Shown here piece after piece: positions 5,640 through 47,111 of a stretch of 47,871 nucleotides of DNA. Under the pieces are notes generated by a model. The model was not told where the DNA came from, did not search any database, and was given only the letters and a program-made list of their open reading frames with translations. The DNA is from an uncultured Verrucomicrobiota bacterium. Lineage in GTDB: Bacteria; Verrucomicrobiota; Verrucomicrobiia; Palsa-1439. Positions within the stretch are counted from its first letter, which is position 1. Each line of letters opens with the position of its first letter. The translations under genes were made by a program, and so were the position numbers. The stretch lies in the NCBI GenBank assembly GCA_903825435.1, contig CAIKAP010000186.1, forward strand, positions 1 to 47,871, read 5' to 3'.

Positions 5640-6871
5640 CGGTCGCACTCTCCCATCACGAAATCGAGACTCGCCAGAATTGCGACGAGGTCGGAGATCA
5701 TGTGACCTTTCGCCATCACCGGCAACGCTTGCAGGTTCACAAAACTCGGCGCGCGAATCTTCAACCGGTGCGGCGTGCCGCCGCCGCGACTGACGATGTA
5801 GAAACCAAGCTCGCCTTTCGGATTCTCCGCCGAGAAATAAACTTCGCCGGACGGTGCATTGAGTCCTTCGGTGACATTGATGAAGTGATGGATCAACTCT
5901 TCCATCTTCGTCAGCACCGCCTTCTTTTCCGGCAACACAATCTTCGCTTCGGGTGCATTCCAGGCGCCGCCCGGCATATTATCAATCGCCTGCTGAATGA
6001 TTCGGATGCTCTGTCGCATTTCTTCCATCCGGCAAAGATAGCGGTCGTAGCAATCGCCGACGGAGCCGACCGGCACGTCAAAATCAAACTTCTCGTAGCC
6101 GCCGTACGGATGCGCCTTGCGCAAATCCCATTCGATTCCGGTCGCACGCAAAATCGGCCCGGTGATTCCAAAATCCACCGCCTGTTCTTTCGTCAACACA
6201 CCGATGTCGCGCGTGCGGTCGAGGAAGATTTTGTTCCGGGTCAATAGCGTGTCCACCTCGGCAATTGTCGCGGGAAGTTCGGCGAGAAATTTCCGGAGCA
6301 TCGGCAAAAATTCCGGAGGCATATCGTTCGCGAGTCCGCCGATGCGCGTGTAACTCGTCGTGAATCGCGCACCGCAGAGGCACTCGCAAAGGTCGTAGAT
6401 TTTTTCGCGTTCCTTGAACGTGTACAGGAACACGGTAATCGCGCCGACATCCATACCGAACGTGCCAATGCCGAGCAGATGCGAACTGATCCGCGCCAGC
6501 TCCGCGCAGACAACGCGAATATACTGGCAACGCGGCGGCACTTCGAGTCCGAGCAATTTCTCCACGGCGTACGCGTACGCGACATTGTTGGCAAGCGGCG
6601 CAAGATAATCGAGGCGGTCGGTGTACGGAATGAATTGCGTCCACGTCATGTTCTCCGCAAGCTTCTCGTCGCCGCGATGCAGAAAACCGATGTCGGGCCA
6701 GACATTGATGATCTCCTCGCCATCAAGTTCGAGCACCAGACGCAACACGCCGTGTGTGCTCGGATGTTGCGGCCCCATGTTGATGATCATCCGCTCGCCG
6801 CGCAATTCGTCCCCCGCCTCCTGCGCGCGCGCCGCCGACTCCATCAACTCAATCTGGTGTTCCGTAGCCAT
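5636..6871 (-). CDS. nuoD: NADH-quinone oxidoreductase subunit D (49 kDa)
   Basis: This 411-residue peripheral-arm subunit derives from the large subunit of NiFe hydrogenases and lines the quinone pocket. Conserved MGPQHPSTHGVLRLVLELDG, IGFLHRGDEKLAE and a C-terminal SLDFVMGECDR identify it. It is a stand-alone NuoD, not a NuoCD fusion as in E. coli. It starts 4 nt after the nuoC stop codon and its own stop overlaps the nuoEF ATG. Confidence 0.96.
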   Translation of the reverse strand: MATEHQIELMESAARAQEAGDELRGERMIINMGPQHPSTHGVLRLVLELDGEEIINVWPDIGFLHRGDEKLAENMTWTQFIPYTDRLDYLAPLANNVAYAYAVEKLLGLEVPPRCQYIRVVCAELARISSHLLGIGTFGMDVGAITVFLYTFKEREKIYDLCECLCGARFTTSYTRIGGLANDMPPEFLPMLRKFLAELPATIAEVDTLLTRNKIFLDRTRDIGVLTKEQAVDFGITGPILRATGIEWDLRKAHPYGGYEKFDFDVPVGSVGDCYDRYLCRMEEMRQSIRIIQQAIDNMPGGAWNAPEAKIVLPEKKAVLTKMEELIHHFINVTEGLNAPSGEVYFSAENPKGELGFYIVSRGGGTPHRLKIRAPSFVNLQALPVMAKGHMISDLVAILASLDFVMGECDR

Positions 6872-39632: not shown

Positions 39633-40331
39633 CTAATGGCTCGGTAAATAAACGTCTAGACTGAACGTGCGCGCTGCGGAATTCGTAATGTTGTTGAAAA
39701 CAGCGGAACCAGAAGCGGCGTTAGCTTTGGCCAACCGGGCAGCGGCACGACTGTCAACGATGGTCAGTGAGAGTCTGACAGAAACAGGATTTTGGTTTCC
39801 CCCTGGCAGCGCGCTAGACCATGTTTGATTTGAAGCTACAATTGTCGCGTATTGAAATGACACATCCACTACGTTATCCACCAGAACGTCTCCCCCATTG
39901 GCATCCGCTGTGAGCTTCCAGTTATTCCCAGTCCCAACCGTGAATGTGTTTGTAGCGGTACGGCGCAGGGAGCACAAGCCGTTGGACTCCGTATTCATTT
40001 GGTAGGTGATTGTGAGGATGTCAGGCAGACCGTCATTAGCTGCTGCGGGAAACGCGATCCAGTCAGCACCACCTTGGAGAATTAGTGGCTGGGGATCGGA
40101 ATTGGTGCGCAAGACGGCTTGCGAAATGTCACGCGCAAATAAGTCTAACGCGGCACGGGCCTGCACAAACGTTTCAACTCTATTTTCGGTTAGTAGCCAG
40201 GCTTTGCTGGCCTGATTAAACGCTCCAAACAGAATGGCGCTCAGAATCGCAACGATGGAAATGGCCGCCAGCATTTCCAGCAATGTAAACCCCTCCGCGT
40301 ATCGCGATGATGGAGCCAAGAGTCGTTTCAT
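39633..40331 (-). CDS. GspJ-like minor pseudopilin
   Basis: This 232-residue protein has the prepilin leader EGFTLLEMLAAISIVAILSAILFG and the following TENRVETFVQARAALDLFARDISQAV, the pattern of GspJ/PulJ minor pseudopilins (helix followed by a 'DL..DI..A' segment). It sits between the I-like and K-like genes in I-J-K order as in type II secretion. Its ATG overlaps the upstream stop (ATGA). Confidence 0.8.
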   Translation of the reverse strand: MKRLLAPSSRYAEGFTLLEMLAAISIVAILSAILFGAFNQASKAWLLTENRVETFVQARAALDLFARDISQAVLRTNSDPQPLILQGGADWIAFPAAANDGLPDILTITYQMNTESNGLCSLRRTATNTFTVGTGNNWKLTADANGGDVLVDNVVDVSFQYATIVASNQTWSSALPGGNQNPVSVRLSLTIVDSRAAARLAKANAASGSAVFNNITNSAARTFSLDVYLPSH

Positions 40332-40753
40332 GGAATCGAATAGTCCGAAATAACGGTATAGTAGTAGTACTGCGCGTATTTGCTATGGCAACTCCACACT
40401 AAGGCGTAATACTTCCTGCTATTGCTCGTAATCATGTCAGGCTGTATCTGTACTTTGAAGTAGTAATCCGAGTACACCCTCACGCCGTTTATGTCGTACC
40501 ATCGTTCGTTGGTAGCACCCGAAGTATTATTCACAGCACTCGGATTGGCGCGAATTTCGGTAAACCGTCTCTCCACGAGCAGGGCAGCCATGGTATGTTC
40601 TAGAGCTTGGCTGGCATTTTGTGCTGTGTTGGTTAGCAGGGCGAGTATTCCCATCAAACCAATAAAACAAACCGTAACAGCGATCAAGACTTCCGCCAGT
40701 GTGAACCCAGCGCAATGACCGCGCCTGAATTTGGAGAGAGATTGTGGTTTCAC
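40328..40753 (-). CDS. GspI-like minor pseudopilin
   Basis: This 141-residue protein has a prepilin leader, AGFTLAEVLIAVTVCFIGLMGILAL, followed by ALEHTMAALLVERRFTEIRAN; the 'LAEVLIA..' leader and the short length match GspI/PulI. A Tyr-rich C-terminal end (KYYALVWSCHSKYAQYYYY) is unusual. The start is a GTG overlapping the upstream TGA. Confidence 0.78.
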   Translation of the reverse strand: MKPQSLSKFRRGHCAGFTLAEVLIAVTVCFIGLMGILALLTNTAQNASQALEHTMAALLVERRFTEIRANPSAVNNTSGATNERWYDINGVRVYSDYYFKVQIQPDMITSNSRKYYALVWSCHSKYAQYYYYTVISDYSIP

Positions 40754-41379
40754 GGGCGGAGAATCTGAATGCGGCCGACAAGAGCCTTGTAAACAATGTC
40801 GACCCGGTTGCTGTTTAACACGTAGGCTGGCGTGCCATCAGATCGGCGGGTACCCTCATAGATACTTAGGGTGCCAGCGTTACTACCACCGCCCGTTGGA
40901 CTGGTCGCCGCACCGGTGGGTTTGAACTCGATATAGGCAACGGTCCGGGTGCCAAAGCCAAAGTCCATATCCGTACTGTTTAGGCTTGACGCATCATTCA
41001 ATGAACCATTCGTCACACTGCTGTTACCAAAAAGGGCGCCAAGTGGGAGGCTTTCCCAGTTTCCAACTTGGCACCAGCATTCCGGATCGGTTATCATATT
41101 GGTGCGGGCGATGACAGTGTAGGTGCCGTATTGCTTGGAAAGGTTTAGGTCCTGTGTGGTTCCGTCGTAATAGAAAACGACTCGGGTATTGGTGTGTCGG
41201 TTGATGGCGTACTGTCGAGCCAGGTTGAGTGTATTGTAAACAGCCCGGCTACCGGAGGAGACGGCAGTGGCGCGAAAACTCGACAATGCGGGAAGTCCGA
41301 GTGCCAGCAATATGCCTATCAACAGAACGACAGATAGCAACTCAAGTAGAGTAAATGCATTTTGACATCGGGGGGGCAT
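40750..41379 (-). CDS. GspH-like pseudopilin
   Basis: This 209-residue protein has the leader NAFTLLELLSVVLLIGILLALGLP (Ala before Phe) then SRAVYNTLNLARQYAINRHTNTRVVFYYDG, which is the GspH/FimT pattern (helix, then 'AR..AI.R...V.'). It has an N-terminal Cys in the leader (PPRCQNAF). The ORF-track start (41496) overlaps the previous gene; the ATG at 41379 has GAGAGG at good spacing. Confidence 0.78.
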   Translation of the reverse strand: MPPRCQNAFTLLELLSVVLLIGILLALGLPALSSFRATAVSSGSRAVYNTLNLARQYAINRHTNTRVVFYYDGTTQDLNLSKQYGTYTVIARTNMITDPECWCQVGNWESLPLGALFGNSSVTNGSLNDASSLNSTDMDFGFGTRTVAYIEFKPTGAATSPTGGGSNAGTLSIYEGTRRSDGTPAYVLNSNRVDIVYKALVGRIQILRP

Positions 41380-41389
41380 AGCGCGCCTC

Positions 41390-41920
41390 TCACCAACTCG
41401 TACAAACCGAATCAAGGTCATTCGCCGTATCCTTGCTAGTGCCACACGTGCCACCCGCAGGCCCAAATGACCACACCCAAACATTGCGAGATGCATAGCT
41501 TGTTACGCCAGCAAAGGGATACCCAACGCCACCGCCACCCGCATTGGCACCACTGAAATCACCGTCGCATCGGAACCGATACGGCTGCCTCCAAGGATCA
41601 AGATAGTTCCCGGTACTGTCAACACTTCCCTTCCTAGTTGAAAAATCGTAAAAGTTTATGCTCCGGGTATTCAGAAATGTATTTGTCGCAATGTTATAAC
41701 AATTCTGGTTGTTGGTAGGCCAATACCCAAACTCCGTGTAAAATGCTTGGAAAGCTGCTGATAAGTTACGCGCCTCGGCTGTTGCCTTTGCTTTCTGAGC
41801 CGAACGGATCGCGGAACTGATAGCAGGAAACAAAAGCCCAGCGAGAACACCTATGATACTGATTACTACGAGTATTTCAATCAATGTGAATGCGCGCTGT
41901 TTTCGGAAATCTCTTTTCAT
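41390..41920 (-). CDS. GspG-like pseudopilin
   Basis: This 176-residue protein has the leader [24 protein letters not shown], followed by AKATAEARNLSAAFQAFYTEFGYWPTNNQ, the GspG major pseudopilin pattern (helix, then a 'GYWPT' turn) and a late YLDPWRQPYRFRCDGD like the GspG 'DPWG.PY' motif. The ATG at 41920 follows AAGGAG. It is one of two consecutive GspG-like genes. Confidence 0.85.
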   Translation of the reverse strand: MKRDFRKQRAFTLIEILVVISIIGVLAGLLFPAISSAIRSAQKAKATAEARNLSAAFQAFYTEFGYWPTNNQNCYNIATNTFLNTRSINFYDFSTRKGSVDSTGNYLDPWRQPYRFRCDGDFSGANAGGGGVGYPFAGVTSYASRNVWVWSFGPAGGTCGTSKDTANDLDSVCTSW

Positions 41921-41942: not shown

Positions 41943-42488
41943 CTATTGCGTCCAGTTGCGATATACCACACTATTGTCCACGCCGATAACCCACAAATCA
42001 TACCCGCCTAGGTTATGGGTGCCAGGGCAAACATATTGGTATTCATTGCCAGCAGGATTGGCGAGTGGATTACTACCGTTGATCCAGCCGGCTTGAACAG
42101 TGCCACCTGCTGAGTCCACATAATGTTCAGCACCATCGGGACCGTGATTGTAATCCCATCCCTGCAAATAGCCTCCACCGAAGCCATCAGCATCGAGAAA
42201 CCTCCCTAAGAGATGGATTCCTTGCCTGCTACCGGCCCATTCTTTATCAGCGCCTGTACCGGCTGCATATGGACTCGCCAAGTTGGTCGGTGGATAATAC
42301 CCATTGTTAGACTTATACGCTTCGATGGCCAATTGGAGAGCCGCAAACTGTGCTTGGCATTTACCCTCAAGGGCTTTCCTTTGCATATACCGGGCACTAC
42401 TAAAAATCATCGAGACTAAGATTATGATGATAAAAACCACCGCCAGCAACTCAAGTAACGTAAACCCTTTGTTTTTAGTCGTCTTCAT
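41943..42488 (-). CDS. GspG-like pseudopilin, first of the pseudopilin operon
   Basis: This 181-residue protein has the leader KGFTLLELLAVVFIIIILVSMIF followed by CQAQFAALQLAIEAYKSNNGYYPPTN, again the GspG 'L..AIEAYK..NGYYP' pattern. A W-rich, Gly-rich domain follows. Its ATG overlaps the stop of the antitoxin gene (ATGA), so translation is coupled to a toxin-antitoxin pair, an odd pairing for a pilin gene. Confidence 0.85.
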   Translation of the reverse strand: MKTTKNKGFTLLELLAVVFIIIILVSMIFSSARYMQRKALEGKCQAQFAALQLAIEAYKSNNGYYPPTNLASPYAAGTGADKEWAGSRQGIHLLGRFLDADGFGGGYLQGWDYNHGPDGAEHYVDSAGGTVQAGWINGSNPLANPAGNEYQYVCPGTHNLGGYDLWVIGVDNSVVYRNWTQ

Positions 42489-42766
42489 CTCTCTCCTCTC
42501 GAACGTAGCTCAGTTTCAAGCTTCTCGCTGAGCCACTGTTTCATCATGCTCTGATAATTCAAATATCGCGACCGCGCCAGCCGTTTGATTCGCGCCAACA
42601 TCCGTGGGTCAAAACGTAATGTGATCGTCGTTGACTCGCTCTGGTCAGGACCCGCCACCGATTGTTGCATCAACTTCGCATCCAGCCGGTGCGACAGCCA
42701 GAAGTCGGCCTCGTCACTCTCCGACTCGAAGAACGGTATGTTCTCCCATTTCATCACGAGATCCAT
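42485..42766 (-). CDS. CopG/ribbon-helix-helix-like antitoxin
   Basis: This 93-residue protein has an acidic N-terminus (KWENIPFFESESDEADFWLSHR) and a C-terminal ribbon-helix-helix-like part (ESTTITLRFDPRMLARIKRLARSRYLNYQSMMKQWLSEKLETEL), the CopG_antitoxin architecture. It should bind and neutralise the adjacent BrnT-like toxin and repress the promoter. The start is the ATG at 42766 after AGGAAGG, overlapping the toxin end by 13 nt; an ATG at 42754 touching the toxin TGA is also possible. The ORF-track start (42898) is too early. Confidence 0.82.
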   Translation of the reverse strand: MDLVMKWENIPFFESESDEADFWLSHRLDAKLMQQSVAGPDQSESTTITLRFDPRMLARIKRLARSRYLNYQSMMKQWLSEKLETELRSRGER

Positions 42767-43047
42767 TCCGATACCTTCCTCTCGTAAAAGTAGCACTCCT
42801 CCTGCGTCATCTCCCTTGCTGCAAAGACGCGTATCTGTTTGCCATCCGACCGATACACACTGAAAACTCCTCGTCCCGACAAAGTCTTCCCCAAGCAAAA
42901 CGTTCGCGATTCCTTTGCAAACCGAGGCGAATCAGGGAAAAGACGGATCCCGTGAGGATCCTCAAAAGACTCTTCAATCTCGCGAGTCGTCGGTCCTTCT
43001 TTCGTATCGAATGGCTGCTCTGACCAGTCAAAGTCCATATCCTCCAT
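42754..43047 (-). CDS. BrnT-like (DUF497) toxin
   Basis: This 97-residue protein resembles BrnT RNase toxins of the RelE-like fold: it has MDFDWSEQ at the N-terminus, EIEESFEDPHGIRLFPDSPRFAKESR, and FSVYRSDGKQIRVFAAREMTQEE, matching the BrnT 'ESR...G...VVY...G..IRIISAR.AT..E' pattern. It would cleave mRNA when unchecked. The start could be 43047 or the ATG at 43038. It is the first gene of a run into the antitoxin and the pseudopilin operon, divergent from the DUF350 cassette. Confidence 0.82.
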   Translation of the reverse strand: MEDMDFDWSEQPFDTKEGPTTREIEESFEDPHGIRLFPDSPRFAKESRTFCLGKTLSGRGVFSVYRSDGKQIRVFAAREMTQEECYFYERKVSEWIS

Positions 43048-43054
43048 CCACACA

Positions 43055-43086
43055 ATGTATCTACATCGTACATACCAACATGTCAA
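43055..43086 (-). promoter_or_regulatory. Toxin-antitoxin promoter with overlapping operator
   Basis: On the minus strand a perfect TTGACA (43081-43086) and TAGATA (43058-43063) are 17 nt apart. An inverted repeat ATGTA-TC-TACAT (43055-43066) covers the -10 and a third TACAT follows at 43069. This is the expected place for antitoxin autorepression. Confidence 0.6.
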
Positions 43087-43169
43087 GCGCTACTTCTCAT
43101 TTTTTTAGAAAAACATCCGTTCGCCATGGCATCACATGCCAAATCATGGTTTGGAGAGAACTGGAGTTC

Positions 43170-43197
43170 TTGACTCGCTGTGTTGCCTAGGTAGAAT
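43170..43197 (+). promoter_or_regulatory. Strong candidate promoter for DUF350 cassette
   Basis: TTGACT and TAGAAT are 16 nt apart, each five of six to consensus. The -10 ends 10 nt before the ATG at 43208, and there is no Shine-Dalgarno, so the mRNA would be nearly leaderless. Confidence 0.65.
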
Positions 43198-43207
43198 CCG
43201 CAACATC

Positions 43208-43447
43208 ATGAACCTACTCATCATGCTTATCGCCCCCACCGCACTGCTGCAAGCCCTCGGCAACATGGTCATCTTCGCCGCCGTCGGCGTCGGCGTCGCG
43301 ATCCTGGGTTATAAAATATTCGACAAATGCACGCCCGGCGACCTGAACAAGGAGATCGTCGAGAACAAGAACATCGCCGCCGCCATCGTCGCCGGGGCAC
43401 TCATCCTCGGCGTGTGCATCATCGTTGCCGTGGCGATGATCGGTTGA
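43208..43447 (+). CDS. DUF350 membrane protein (YjfL-like, single unit)
   Basis: This 79-residue protein has two membrane helices (residues ~5-35 and ~55-78) with the DUF350 loop YKIFDKCTPGDLNKEIVENKNIAAAIVAGALILGVCIIV between them. E. coli YjfL is about 130 residues and carries two such units; this has one. It is the first gene of a cassette with DUF1190-like, YjfC-like and DUF4178 proteins. The ORF-track start (43136) runs upstream of the predicted promoter. The molecular role is unknown; the family is linked to membrane stress gene sets. Confidence 0.88.
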   Translation: MNLLIMLIAPTALLQALGNMVIFAAVGVGVAILGYKIFDKCTPGDLNKEIVENKNIAAAIVAGALILGVCIIVAVAMIG

Positions 43448-43451
43448 ACCG

Positions 43452-43835
43452 GTGAAACGCAGCCGCCGCGTCAAGCTCGTGCTCCTCAGCAGCCTGTCGG
43501 CAGGCGCGCTGAGCAGCTGCGGTCCGTCAGCGGGCGGACCGCCCGCCATCAGCACCGGCGCTGTTTACACCAACAACTTCCATGTCCCCGGCGCCGGTTA
43601 CTATCATGCACCGTTCCGTCGGTGGTACGTGCTGCCATACAATTATTTTGATCCGCAGACGAAGCGGTACTACTACGGCGGACAATGGGCACTGGAACCG
43701 CACCAAACCATCACCAACATCTCCGCACCGACGGCGGATGCGGTGAACTGGGTCGCCGCCACACGCACCGACGTGCAACGCGGCGGGTTCGGCAGCAGTT
43801 CCCGCGGCTACAGCAGCCATTTCATCGGGTCCTGA
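43452..43835 (+). CDS. DUF1190-like lipoprotein (YjfM-like)
   Basis: This 127-residue protein begins KRSRRVKLVLLSSLSAGALSSCG, a lipoprotein signal with the lipobox LSSC, and ends in TRTDVQRGGFGSSSRGYSS, the 'RGGFG.S' tail of YjfM/DUF1190 proteins. The middle is Tyr/Trp-rich (PFRRWYVLPYNYFDPQTKRYYYGG). It lacks the Cys-rich section of longer members. The GTG start lies 4 nt after the DUF350 stop, and its stop overlaps the next ATG (TGATG). Confidence 0.78.
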   Translation: MKRSRRVKLVLLSSLSAGALSSCGPSAGGPPAISTGAVYTNNFHVPGAGYYHAPFRRWYVLPYNYFDPQTKRYYYGGQWALEPHQTITNISAPTADAVNWVAATRTDVQRGGFGSSSRGYSSHFIGS

Positions 43836-44956
43836 TGCAACGCCACCATTGCGAACCGCGTCCCGCTTGGCGGGAGAAAGTCGAGGAGATCGGCCTCACC
43901 TTTCACTCACACGAACACGGGCCGTACTGGGACGAGTCCGCCTGTTACGAACTTACCGCCGCCGAGGTGGACACGCTCGAAGCCGCCGCCCACAAACTCC
44001 ACTACCTCTGCATCGAAGCCGCCGAGGCCGTCATCCGAAACAACTGGTGGCAACGCCTCGGCATCCCGGAAATCGCCGCGCCCGCGATCCTCCGCTCGTG
44101 GGAGCGCGACGACTTCAGCCTCTACGGCCGGTTCGACCTCAGCTACGACGGCCAATCGCCGCCGAAGCTCCTCGAATACAACGCCGACACGCCGACTGCG
44201 CTTATCGAGGCAGCCGTCGCGCAATGGTTCTGGCTCCAGGACACGCGCCCCGGCGCCGACCAGTTCAACTCGCTCCACGAACGGCTCATCGAAGCGTGGC
44301 GCCGCTGGGCCGGGCAGACGATTCATTTCAGCAGCATCAAGGAACACGACGAGGACCAGCAGACCGTGCTCTACCTTCGCGACACCTGCGAACAAGCCGG
44401 CGTGAAAACCAAGCCCGTCTTCATCGAGGACATCGGGTGGGATCAACGGCAGAGTTGCTTCGTTGACCTCGACAACGAACGCATCACGCATTGCTTCAAG
44501 CTCTACCCGTGGGAATGGTTCTGGCACGAGGAGTTCGGGCCGCATCTCGCGCGCGAGCCGGTCCAGTTTATCGAGCCGACCTGGAAAATGCTCCTCAGCA
44601 ACAAAGGTCTCCTGCCGGTTCTCTGGGAACTTTTCCCGGACCATCCGAATCTCCTGCCGACATACGAAGACGCCGCGCCGCTCGGTCCCCGCTACGTCCG
44701 CAAACCGAAACTCAGTCGCGAAGGCGCCAACGTCGCCTGGTTCGAAGGCGGCGTCGCCGTCGAGGAAACCGGCGGCGATTACGGCGAGGAAGGCCACGTC
44801 TTCCAGGCGACGGCGTCGTTGCCCGAGTTCGACGGCAATCGCCCGATTTGCGGCGTCTGGATCGTTGACCACGAGCCGGCCGGTCTGGGCATTCGCGAAG
44901 ACACCCGCCGCATCACCGGCAACCTCAGCCGGTTCGTCCCGCACTTTTTCCCATGA
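43835..44956 (+). CDS. Glutathionylspermidine synthase-like ATP-grasp enzyme (YjfC type)
   Basis: This 373-residue protein matches E. coli YjfC throughout: RPAWREKVEEIGLTFHSHEHGPYWDESACYEL, DLSYDGQSPPKLLEYNADTPTALIEAAVAQW, FKLYPWEWFWHEEFGP, PTWKMLLSNKGLLPVLWELFPDHPNLLPTY, YVRKPKLSREGANV and YGEEGHVFQ. It is the ATP-grasp half of the GSP synthase family without the amidase half, so it ligates an unknown acid to an amine. The natural substrate is unproven. It starts on an ATG overlapping the previous stop and ends overlapping the DUF4178 gene. The ORF-track start (43685) is in another gene's frame. Confidence 0.93.
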   Translation: MQRHHCEPRPAWREKVEEIGLTFHSHEHGPYWDESACYELTAAEVDTLEAAAHKLHYLCIEAAEAVIRNNWWQRLGIPEIAAPAILRSWERDDFSLYGRFDLSYDGQSPPKLLEYNADTPTALIEAAVAQWFWLQDTRPGADQFNSLHERLIEAWRRWAGQTIHFSSIKEHDEDQQTVLYLRDTCEQAGVKTKPVFIEDIGWDQRQSCFVDLDNERITHCFKLYPWEWFWHEEFGPHLAREPVQFIEPTWKMLLSNKGLLPVLWELFPDHPNLLPTYEDAAPLGPRYVRKPKLSREGANVAWFEGGVAVEETGGDYGEEGHVFQATASLPEFDGNRPICGVWIVDHEPAGLGIREDTRRITGNLSRFVPHFFP

Positions 44957-46095
44957 GCGACTACACCAATCCAACCGCGTTGCAGGTCGGCATGTCCGGC
45001 AAACTCTGCGGCCTGAACTACCGCGTTGTCGGCCGCGTCGTCCTCGGCATGACGGAAGATGGCGAGACCTACTACTGGAACGAGTACAACCTTGTGGACG
45101 ACTCCGGCCAATCCGCCACGCTCGTCTTCGAGGAGGTGGAGGAAGGCCCCGAATGGAAGCTGTTCATCCTGTTTGACCCGGTCGAACCGATGACTGCCAC
45201 CGAAGCGGCGCGCAAAAAAGTCGGCGACAAGGTGAACCTCAACGGCTCGCTGGTGAAGATCACTCTCGTCAGCCAATCCCGCGTCTATCACATCGAGGGA
45301 CAAGCGCCCGAAGGCGTCGAGGTCGGCGACATTGCCAGCTACTTCAACGCCGACACCGGCGTCGAGATGCAGGTCGCGAGCTGGACCGGCGACGAGATCG
45401 AGTTCTACCGCGGCATCAACGTACCCGTGGACGATGTCGCCTCCGGTTTCAACCTGCCGACGGAGAAACTGACCGGCGGCGGCCCTGCCGTTGAGGAAAC
45501 CGAAAGCTCATCGGGAAGTTCATGGCCGGTATTGCCGAGACTGATCGCCGTGGGAGTGGCCACGCTGATCAGTTTCGTCACCTACTCGTCATGGCGAAGC
45601 CCGCGTCTGACCGGTGGCGCGCCGAAGAAACCGTCAACACGCACCTCACCGTTGCCAACCGGCGCTTCCGGCACTCTCGCCACTAAGCACACCACCATCG
45701 CGGAACACGTCGTCGTCGAGATCGCCAAGGTCGGCGCGTTGTACGACTGGCACGAGTACCGTCTTCGCGACGATACCGGTGAATCGGCGCTGCTCATCTG
45801 CGGCCTGACCGGCGACGCCGCGCAATGGCACCTGTTCCGCAGTGCGCAACCGTTCACGTCGTTGACGCCTCCGCAAGCCGCCGCCCTGCGCGTTCGTGAA
45901 ACGCTGATAATTGGCGAGCGCACACTGCGAATCGAGACGTTGTTCCAAGCGCGCCGCCTCGATGGCGCCGTGTCGTTTGGTTTTCTCGCCCGCGCCGGCA
46001 ACGACTGGGGCGTCGTTCGCTGGACGCAGAACGAGATCGAGTTCTACCTCGGCACTCCGTTACCGGAGAAGGAAGTCCTCGCCGCCTTCAAGTAA
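44953..46095 (+). CDS. Double DUF4178 protein with central membrane helix
   Basis: This 380-residue protein has two copies of the same domain. Copy 1 (~residues 15-160): YYWNEYNLVDDSGQSATLVFEE ... GDEIEFYRGINVPVDDV. Copy 2 (~240-380): YDWHEYRLRDDTGESALLICG ... QNEIEFYLGTPLPEKEV. A single helix (WPVLPRLIAVGVATLISFV) and a Ser/Pro linker lie between them, so the two domains would sit on opposite sides of the membrane. Its ATG overlaps the ATP-grasp stop (ATGA). DUF4178 proteins are linked to DUF350/GSP-synthase gene sets. Confidence 0.85.
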   Translation: MSDYTNPTALQVGMSGKLCGLNYRVVGRVVLGMTEDGETYYWNEYNLVDDSGQSATLVFEEVEEGPEWKLFILFDPVEPMTATEAARKKVGDKVNLNGSLVKITLVSQSRVYHIEGQAPEGVEVGDIASYFNADTGVEMQVASWTGDEIEFYRGINVPVDDVASGFNLPTEKLTGGGPAVEETESSSGSSWPVLPRLIAVGVATLISFVTYSSWRSPRLTGGAPKKPSTRTSPLPTGASGTLATKHTTIAEHVVVEIAKVGALYDWHEYRLRDDTGESALLICGLTGDAAQWHLFRSAQPFTSLTPPQAAALRVRETLIIGERTLRIETLFQARRLDGAVSFGFLARAGNDWGVVRWTQNEIEFYLGTPLPEKEVLAAFK

Positions 46096-46199: not shown

Positions 46200-46586
46200 T
46201 TAGTACGATCCCCAGTCAATTCCCACACCGTCCAACGCGCTCTTGGTCGCGTCAGAAACCCTGAATTGATTTGTGCCGACAGTGCCGATGACGAATGAAT
46301 TGCCGAGTGAATCAATGGACCTCCAAGGCACTTTTAGGTAGGTTGCAATTGCAGATTCATTACCAGCAACTGTATCTCCATCTTTTTTTCCGTTTTCTAG
46401 CGCCCACTGATTGATCGCATTGTCCTGTACCCGCGCATCGTTGACGATACGACGGCCTTGGGACACCTTGCGCGATTTCACGAATGTCGGCATTGCCAAG
46501 ACAGCCAGCAGCCCAATAATGGCTACAATGATCATGATTTCTAACAGCGTAAAAGCTGCAGCTTTGTCGGTGGTTTTGCATTTCAT
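46200..46586 (-). CDS. Prepilin-type protein, tandem paralogue 1
   Basis: This 128-residue pilin/pseudopilin has the leader AAFTLLEIMIIVAIIGLLAVLAMP (Ala before Phe), a short helix FVKSRKVSQGRRIVNDARVQDNAINQWALEN and a C-terminal LDGVGIDWGSY. It is a close paralogue of the 46734 gene. The ATG at 46586 follows GGAGGAACC; the ORF-track start (46625) is an upstream extension. It is separated from its paralogue by a terminator, so it may need its own promoter, which I could not identify. Confidence 0.85.
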   Translation of the reverse strand: MKCKTTDKAAAFTLLEIMIIVAIIGLLAVLAMPTFVKSRKVSQGRRIVNDARVQDNAINQWALENGKKDGDTVAGNESAIATYLKVPWRSIDSLGNSFVIGTVGTNQFRVSDATKSALDGVGIDWGSY

Positions 46587-46677
46587 GTTGTCTGGTTCCT
46601 CCAGCCAAATGTATCTCTTGCCCATGCCGTCGTCTCGACCTGAACTCTCTAGCCAGTTGCACTACGGCATCTTCCAG

Positions 46678-46733: not shown

Positions 46734-47111
46734 TTAGAACTGACCCCAGTCAATTCCTACGCCATCCAACGAACTCTTGGTCGTGGTGGCGATCTTCATC
46801 TGGTTGGAGCCAACCGTGCTGATTGTGAACGAATTACCCAGCAGGTCAGTATCTTTCCATTCGCCCTTCAGATAGGTAGCGGCCTCTGACGTTGTGACGG
46901 TGTCGCCGTCCTTCTTGTGTTTCTCTAGTGCCCATTGATCAATGGCTGAGTCCATCTGACGCGCATCATTCAGGATACGACGGCCTTGCGATTGTTTACG
47001 AGCTTTCACGAAGCCCGGAATCGCCAACGCTGCCAGCAACCCAATGATAGCCACCACGATCATGATTTCCACCAGAGTGAATGCTTGGTTTTTTCGGGTG
47101 TCTCTCATCAC
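46734..47111 (-). CDS. Prepilin-type protein, tandem paralogue 2
   Basis: This 125-residue pilin has the leader NQAFTLVEIMIVVAIIGLLAALAIP (Ala before Phe), then FVKARKQSQGRRILNDARQMDSAIDQWALEKHKKDG and ends LDGVGIDWGQF, about 60% identical to the 46200 product by eye. A strong AAAGGAGTGACACAG precedes the ATG. The small size and a free C-terminal aromatic residue suggest a GspG/PilA-type major subunit. It lies next to the tRNA-Pro gene. Confidence 0.87.
   Translation of the reverse strand: MMRDTRKNQAFTLVEIMIVVAIIGLLAALAIPGFVKARKQSQGRRILNDARQMDSAIDQWALEKHKKDGDTVTTSEAATYLKGEWKDTDLLGNSFTISTVGSNQMKIATTTKSSLDGVGIDWGQF

Follow-up and report, generated by a model that had tools for sequence, protein, structure and literature searches.

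A pair of small genes related to BrnT toxins and CopG-type (ribbon-helix-helix, RHH) antitoxins stands at the head of a six-gene pseudopilin operon in an uncultured member of the Verrucomicrobiota, and it is probably an ancient, domesticated pair that serves as local autoregulator of this operon, with the toxin-like protein as a partner without catalytic function. This reading is built on the gene order, the single copy, purifying selection, the loss of the K-H motif of BrnT and the presence of one conserved operator motif per genome. It has long been debated, mostly from individual cases, whether toxin-antitoxin pairs on chromosomes are selfish elements or have been recruited to serve the host; the pair described here, wide in its class, with the motif lost, under strong selection and with one promoter-operator per genome, provides a clear and testable case of domestication. 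The pair is, in addition, a candidate for the control of pseudopilus or secretion loci in this lineage; no regulator of such loci was found for the lineage in the open papers searched.

The stretch of DNA analyzed (the window, 47,871 nt) corresponds to a complete contig (G000:C186) from a draft genome of 3.4 Mb, and the features concerned are collected in Table 1. The BrnT-like frame is counted from the ATG at 43038, the start common to the orthologues; an alternative in-frame ATG three codons upstream, at 43047, had been taken as the start in the first-pass annotation. The BrnT-like and antitoxin-like frames overlap by 13 nt, and the antitoxin-like stop shares the letters ATGA with the start of the first pilin at 42488 (4-nt overlap), which is served by a purine-rich ribosome-binding site (GAGAGGAGAGAG-ATG). 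Both overlaps, as well as the six-gene operon that follows the pair, had been described in the first-pass annotation and were confirmed from the sequence and the ORF coordinates; every junction within the operon is overlapping or at most 22 nt long. Small overlapping genes that encode a toxin fold and an RHH antitoxin, the layout of a type II toxin-antitoxin module, are thus present at the window pair.

Table 1. Features of the pair and of the pseudopilin operon in the window (- strand), with the basis of each assignment.
Feature	Coordinates	Strand	Basis and remarks
Promoter-operator (putative)	43056..43086	-	Motif conservation among relatives
BrnT-like protein, 94 aa	42754..43038	-	PF04365, AF2 and Foldseek; without K-H catalytic motif
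CopG-type (RHH) antitoxin-like protein, 93 aa	42485..42766	-	PF12441, alignments
First GspG-like pseudopilin	41943..42488	-	PF08334 and PF07963; TIGR01710 under its cut-off
Second GspG-like pseudopilin	41390..41920	-	Pfam and NCBIfam matches
GspH / Verru_Chthon D-like minor pseudopilin	40750..41379	-	GspH weak; TIGR02596 44.7 bits, cut-off 70; start (41379) approximate, inferred by eye
GspI / PilV / Verru_Chthon B-like minor pseudopilin	40328..40753	-	NCBIfam; GTG start, 4-nt overlap with preceding gene
GspJ / Verru_Chthon C-like minor pseudopilin	39633..40331	-	NCBIfam; 4-nt overlap with preceding gene
GspK / Verru_Chthon A-like protein, 803 aa	37218..39629	-	TIGR02600 E 1.3e-39, 136 bits, cut-off 332; GspK NF037980 E 1.7e-5

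The operon shows the G-H-I-J-K order and the prepilin N-terminal motifs of a type II secretion pseudopilin operon or Verru_Chthon cassette. Five of its proteins exceed the cut-off of the Pfam N_methyl model, and the NCBIfam matches include Verru_Chthon cassette proteins A-D, all full-length models being below their cut-offs (GspG 49-52 bits for a cut-off of 88.9; A and D as in Table 1). The best pilB and pilC homologues of the window's genome are located elsewhere, on contig C41. Two more prepilin-type genes lie in the window apart from the operon (46200-46625 and 46734-47111, - strand); they are alike, VGIDWG and two further residues forming the C-terminus of each. A divergent gene group occupies positions 43136-46095 (+ strand) beside the pair and encodes a DUF350 membrane protein (43136-43447), a small protein, a glutathionylspermidine synthase-like protein assigned by NCBIfam (43685-44956) and a 380-aa protein with no NCBIfam match (44953-46095).

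The BrnT-like protein matches BrnT_toxin (PF04365) with an E value of 5e-7 and 30.3 bits, under the cut-off of 34.5; 26 of 28 relatives match the same model at E up to 0.01, and some of them pass the cut-off. The AF2 model of the protein (pLDDT 82) finds 7vd7_A (E 9.5e-4) and the BrnT structure 3u97 (prob 0.96) as its best PDB matches in Foldseek and has the BrnT / RelE-like fold, and a sequence-only PDB search with the toxin profile matched nothing. The K-H motif of BrnT occurs in none of 141 homologues, and the histidine column of the alignment holds no histidine in 62 pair-family sequences vs H in 13 of 14 canonical BrnTs and Y in one. Because the alignment is loose in the region of the lost motif, the count of any K-H motif (141 homologues) is given beside the column count (62 sequences); the canonical controls come from the same and sister genomes, with C_L197 and C_L198 left out of the counts. 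Sporadic histidines are found at varied places in 17 of the 141 homologues. The PF04365 match of pair-family members begins at profile positions 14-19, behind the K-H motif, and that of most canonical BrnTs at position 1. The other BrnT-conserved positions (R, G, R, R, E, Y) are kept nearly invariant, in 58-62 of the 62 sequences; among them R45, R70, R75, E81 and Y85 (window numbering) vary hardly or not at all, and E23, E26 and D27 are further invariant acidic residues of the alignment. Judged from the sequences, the toxin-like protein has lost the catalytic motif in every member examined and has kept the rest of the conserved core. A separate canonical BrnT is encoded in the window's genome (G000:C183:8-199, locus L196; K-H motif AAKHGVTFEEA) and is cut by the contig end.

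The residues that are kept give rise to the main rival explanation, according to which the BrnT-like protein retains RNase activity through a rebuilt site (E23, E26 and D27 together with R45, R70, R75 and E81) and acts on pseudopilin mRNA or translation, while the RHH protein restrains the RNase and represses the promoter. Apart from the near-invariance of the remaining half of the BrnT core and the additional acidic residues, this explanation can draw on the E86A variant of Aave_1720, which lost RNase activity and had only slightly reduced toxicity, meaning that activity and toxicity can part (PMC10714953). However, the H18A exchange abolished the toxicity of Aave_1720 (PMC10714953), and the K and H residues matter for toxicity in BrnT and RelS, both of which are disabled by their loss (BrnT mutant data as related second-hand in PMC13284704). 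None of the 141 homologues has the motif, and in one genome (G010) an insertion of about 190 nt parts the toxin and antitoxin genes, neither of which was lost, a situation that a potent toxin should not easily tolerate. An RNase of this kind is considered unlikely.

The RHH protein exceeds the cut-off of CopG_antitoxin (PF12441; 39.4 bits, cut-off 28), all 28 of its relatives examined match this model at E up to 0.01, and the alignments display a conserved core, STTITLRFDPRMLARIKRLARSRYLNYQSMMKQW. Nothing significant was retrieved in a sequence-only PDB search with the RHH profile. The AF2 model of the RHH protein alone was poor (pLDDT 62), as is expected for a single chain of an obligate dimer such as an RHH protein, and it was left out of the analysis.

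The arrangement of pair and pilins is not due to chance, since it recurs in genomes of the family, in further loci and in other families. Nine of the 11 genomes of the window's family carry exactly one full orthologue (62-78% identical), and the link to a pseudopilin operon, for which a check among relatives had been proposed in the first-pass annotation, holds in eight of these nine, the window's genome included, where the complete pair heads the operon. The exception, G002 (53% complete), has the pair and the promoter-like site with no pseudopilins downstream (L047 / L066, G002:C95); G001 contains an orthologue fragment at a contig end, and no orthologue was seen in G007 (85% complete). From the 193 relatives detected in a scan of species genomes a set of 80 was retained, the majority of them in Verrucomicrobia, Limisphaerales and Pedosphaera assemblies; the RHH gene adjoins the BrnT-like gene in 79 of the 80 loci (the remaining one is truncated by the end of its contig), pseudopilins follow the pair in 76, and the arrangement recurs in 75 of the 79 loci beyond the window. 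Within the class, the BrnT-like gene was detected in 201 of 384 genomes sampled, nearly always as one copy. Besides the window's family, 52 further families were sampled with one to three loci each, giving a set of 61 loci that overlaps in part with the 80. Both genes occur together in all 61, and at least two pseudopilins lie directly downstream of the pair in 34 of the 52 families, including one (f79) placed outside the class by the taxonomy used. Pilins were detected by a prepilin-motif pattern with a hydrophobicity check, and most genomes are metagenome assemblies. In 17 of the 34 pilin-linked families, homologues of pilT-pilB-pilC are found directly upstream on the same strand, so that the pair is flanked on both sides by genes of a type IV filament locus. 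These counts led to rejection of the possibility that the pilin link is limited to the window's family.

Several loci deserve separate mention. In L216 (G386, f79; labelled as another class of the phylum) five pseudopilin genes plus a GspK-like gene lie behind the pair, and the BrnT-like protein has a longer N-terminus. Loci L073, L087, L112, L113 and L141 belong to assemblies titled, for instance, Omnitrophota or Akkermansia muciniphila and hold a Limisphaerales-type pair; these assemblies are probably mislabelled. The BrnT-like and RHH genes are separated by an inverted-repeat-rich insertion in L046 (G010:C33, 3692-3889) and by a 59-nt insertion in L044 (G008:C16, oriented 6163-6222), with both genes intact in each case. 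In L044 a partial second RHH C-terminus (residues 66-93, 64% identical) lies between antitoxin and pilin, at about 6542-6625.

Directly before the pair, on the - strand, a promoter-like site consists of TTGACA (43086-43081), a 17-nt spacer and TAGATA (43063-43058), and the palindrome TGTAGATACA (43065-43056) is contained in an imperfect inverted repeat, GTATGTAC-GAT-GTAGATAC (43075-43057). TTGACA followed by GTAAATACAttGTAnnnACAtTGcATgggCg is present in recognisable form upstream of the pair in 79 of the 80 loci, and 64 of these 79 have a spacer of 17 or 18 between -35 and -10. When 20 genomes were searched with up to three mismatches allowed, 19 contained exactly one promoter-operator motif, always directly before the pair (reversed control, 0). 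In the window's family the pattern TTGAC-N15-19-TGTAnATACA occurs once in eight of the 11 genomes, always at the pair (control pattern, 0), and in families lacking adjacent pilins the motif is at background level. As the operator motif is seen only at the pair's promoter in each genome, no wider regulon with such an operator is visible. The site at 43086 was accepted on conservation and not on a generic promoter scan, which performed at chance level and missed it because the -10 hexamer ends in A.

A separate promoter just before 42488, which according to the first-pass annotation would have spoken against a promoter shared by pair and pilins, was looked for in the sequence and none was found; the sole conserved promoter-like site precedes the pair. 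At the junction of antitoxin and pilin, examined in 75 loci, a possible -4 overlap is seen in 20, another overlap in 10 and a possible start within 30 nt in 34, so that 64 of 75 leave little room before the pilin. Given this lack of space and the conserved motif before the pair, a single promoter is well supported at the sequence level, and pair and pilins appear to form one unit with one conserved promoter-operator, as the first-pass annotation had suggested.

The inheritance of the pair is that of a conserved, single-copy, vertically kept element and not of a roaming toxin-antitoxin module. The mobile, patchy, multi-copy pattern that is usual for type II systems, without strictly defining them, is absent, with one copy in nearly all carriers. 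In the tree of the pair, members of one family mostly cluster together, and unrooted splits separate the pair family from canonical toxins with a support of 0.993 and from canonical CopG antitoxins with 1.0. The toxin-like protein had no plasmid matches and the RHH protein no phage matches; plasmid matches to the RHH protein were all less than 60% identical, and several are annotated as BrnA-type antitoxins. Among close locus pairs, dN/dS is mostly 0.01-0.13 for the BrnT-like gene, 0.03-0.25 for the RHH gene and 0.1-0.5 for the first pilin, dS being saturated in many locus pairs, so that only the closer ones carry weight. In L117 and L118, for example, the BrnT-like proteins are 100% identical at a dS of 0.52 and the pilins 79%. 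Purifying selection is stronger on the BrnT-like and RHH genes than on the adjacent pilin, and decay of a dead toxin gene was rejected by the dN/dS values.

The pair lacks two adjacent pilins in 18 of the 52 further families, where its neighbours are, for instance, a glyoxalase-like gene on the upstream side, VanZ and ligA on the downstream side, or miaA; its role may therefore be wider, and pilus control would not be the sole role everywhere. In L172, L181 (f3), L176, L177, L186, L189 and L191 the pair overlaps miaA or precedes VanZ-ligA, and the upstream gene in such families is often glyoxalase-like, ending in a peptide like PEGYEIELIQ. From these neighbourhoods, together with the higher conservation of both proteins compared with the pilin, it could be argued that the pair has a wider role in the class as a conserved regulator or factor, for example in an RNA process, and that the pseudopilin operon is in many families a neighbour by descent that shares the promoter rather than a target. 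Such a role seems improbable, as the pilin link is old and wide, reaching 34 families, among them f79 outside the class, the pair often lies inside a pilT-pilB-pilC...pseudopilin cluster, and the operator motif is found in each genome only at the pair's promoter.

If the pair is a domesticated local autoregulator, an ancestral, vertically inherited BrnT-CopG toxin-antitoxin pair would have taken over the local regulation of a locus for a type IV filament (of the type II secretion or pilus-like kind). The RHH protein would bind the TGTAnATACA operator, which overlaps the promoter -10, and the BrnT-fold protein, devoid of the K-H motif and cleaving no RNA, would bind the RHH protein in a complex and tune how tightly the latter binds DNA, in the manner of toxins in conditional cooperativity. 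Promoter, pair and pseudopilins would thereby constitute one autoregulated transcription unit, in which translational coupling at ATGA may let pseudopilin output track the RHH : BrnT-like ratio; DNA binding, complex formation, non-toxicity and pilin control are accordingly predicted properties of the pair. More tentatively, with a little less than an even chance, domestication may have taken place once, early in the Verrucomicrobiota, with loss of the catalytic histidine, to leave a dead-toxin/RHH switch that autoregulates pseudopilin supply and whose BrnT-fold component possibly reads the assembly state of the machine. Two observations weigh against the autoregulator: the near-invariant R45, R70, R75, E81 and Y85 are not obviously needed by a purely structural partner, and where two adjacent pilins are lacking the operator is at background. 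It is also conceivable that the RHH protein only represses its own promoter and that the pilins are simply carried along.

It is very improbable that the pair is an ordinary type II toxin-antitoxin module with a stress-responsive promoter from which transcription runs on into the pilins by chance, or with an addiction effect that stabilises the operon, as first proposed, since the BrnT fold, CopG antitoxin, toxin-then-antitoxin order, gene overlap and promoter palindrome that fit such a module are countered by single copy, vertical descent, strong purifying selection, loss of K-H in every homologue while true BrnTs in the same genomes keep it, a toxin-like protein not found on plasmids and the many families that keep the pair without pilins. 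What endures of that first interpretation is the apparent single pair-pilin unit with a shared promoter; an active toxin that protects the operon against loss is not supported, in view of the absent motif, the single-copy vertical gene and the 18 families without two adjacent pilins.

Open papers that join BrnT with a pilin, or that deal with a 'domesticated toxin-antitoxin', were not found, nor was any on the Verru_Chthon cassette, and the link of a Verru_Chthon-type cassette with a BrnT-RHH pair thus seems undescribed. The window operon shares with type II secretion / type IV pilus pseudopilin operons, including the Verru_Chthon cassette (TIGR02596, 02598, 02599, 02600), the GspG-GspG-H(D)-I(B)-J(C)-K(A) order and the prepilin motifs, whereas its proteins remain under all full-length NCBIfam cut-offs for the cassette and GspG models. 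The closest relatives of the pair in layout are the BrnT-BrnA type II systems (Brucella abortus; PF04365 / PF14384; relatives RelS-RelI and Aave_1720-1719), which have in common with it the fold represented by 7vd7 and 3u97, the toxin-then-antitoxin order, an RHH antitoxin, a palindrome in their own promoter and the R, G, R, R, E, Y core. They differ in possessing the K-H motif that all 141 homologues of the toxin-like protein lack and in their patchy spread, unlike the single-copy, vertical, pseudopilin-joined pair. The pairs of CopG_antitoxin and BrnT in other classes of the phylum (L217-L229) resemble it in the N-terminal motif P.F..E.EE..FW, the RHH core and the BrnT-like partner; the histidine is present in their partners (KNW..H), however, and the antitoxins reach only about 50 bits on the profile of the pair family, compared with about 135-155 for true members. 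AmrZ of Pseudomonas aeruginosa is an RHH regulator of type IV pili that acts alone and widely. It is similar to the window RHH protein in that both are RHH proteins with a known or proposed control over a pilus locus, and in contrast to AmrZ the window protein is paired with a BrnT-fold protein of its own and has one operator motif per genome.
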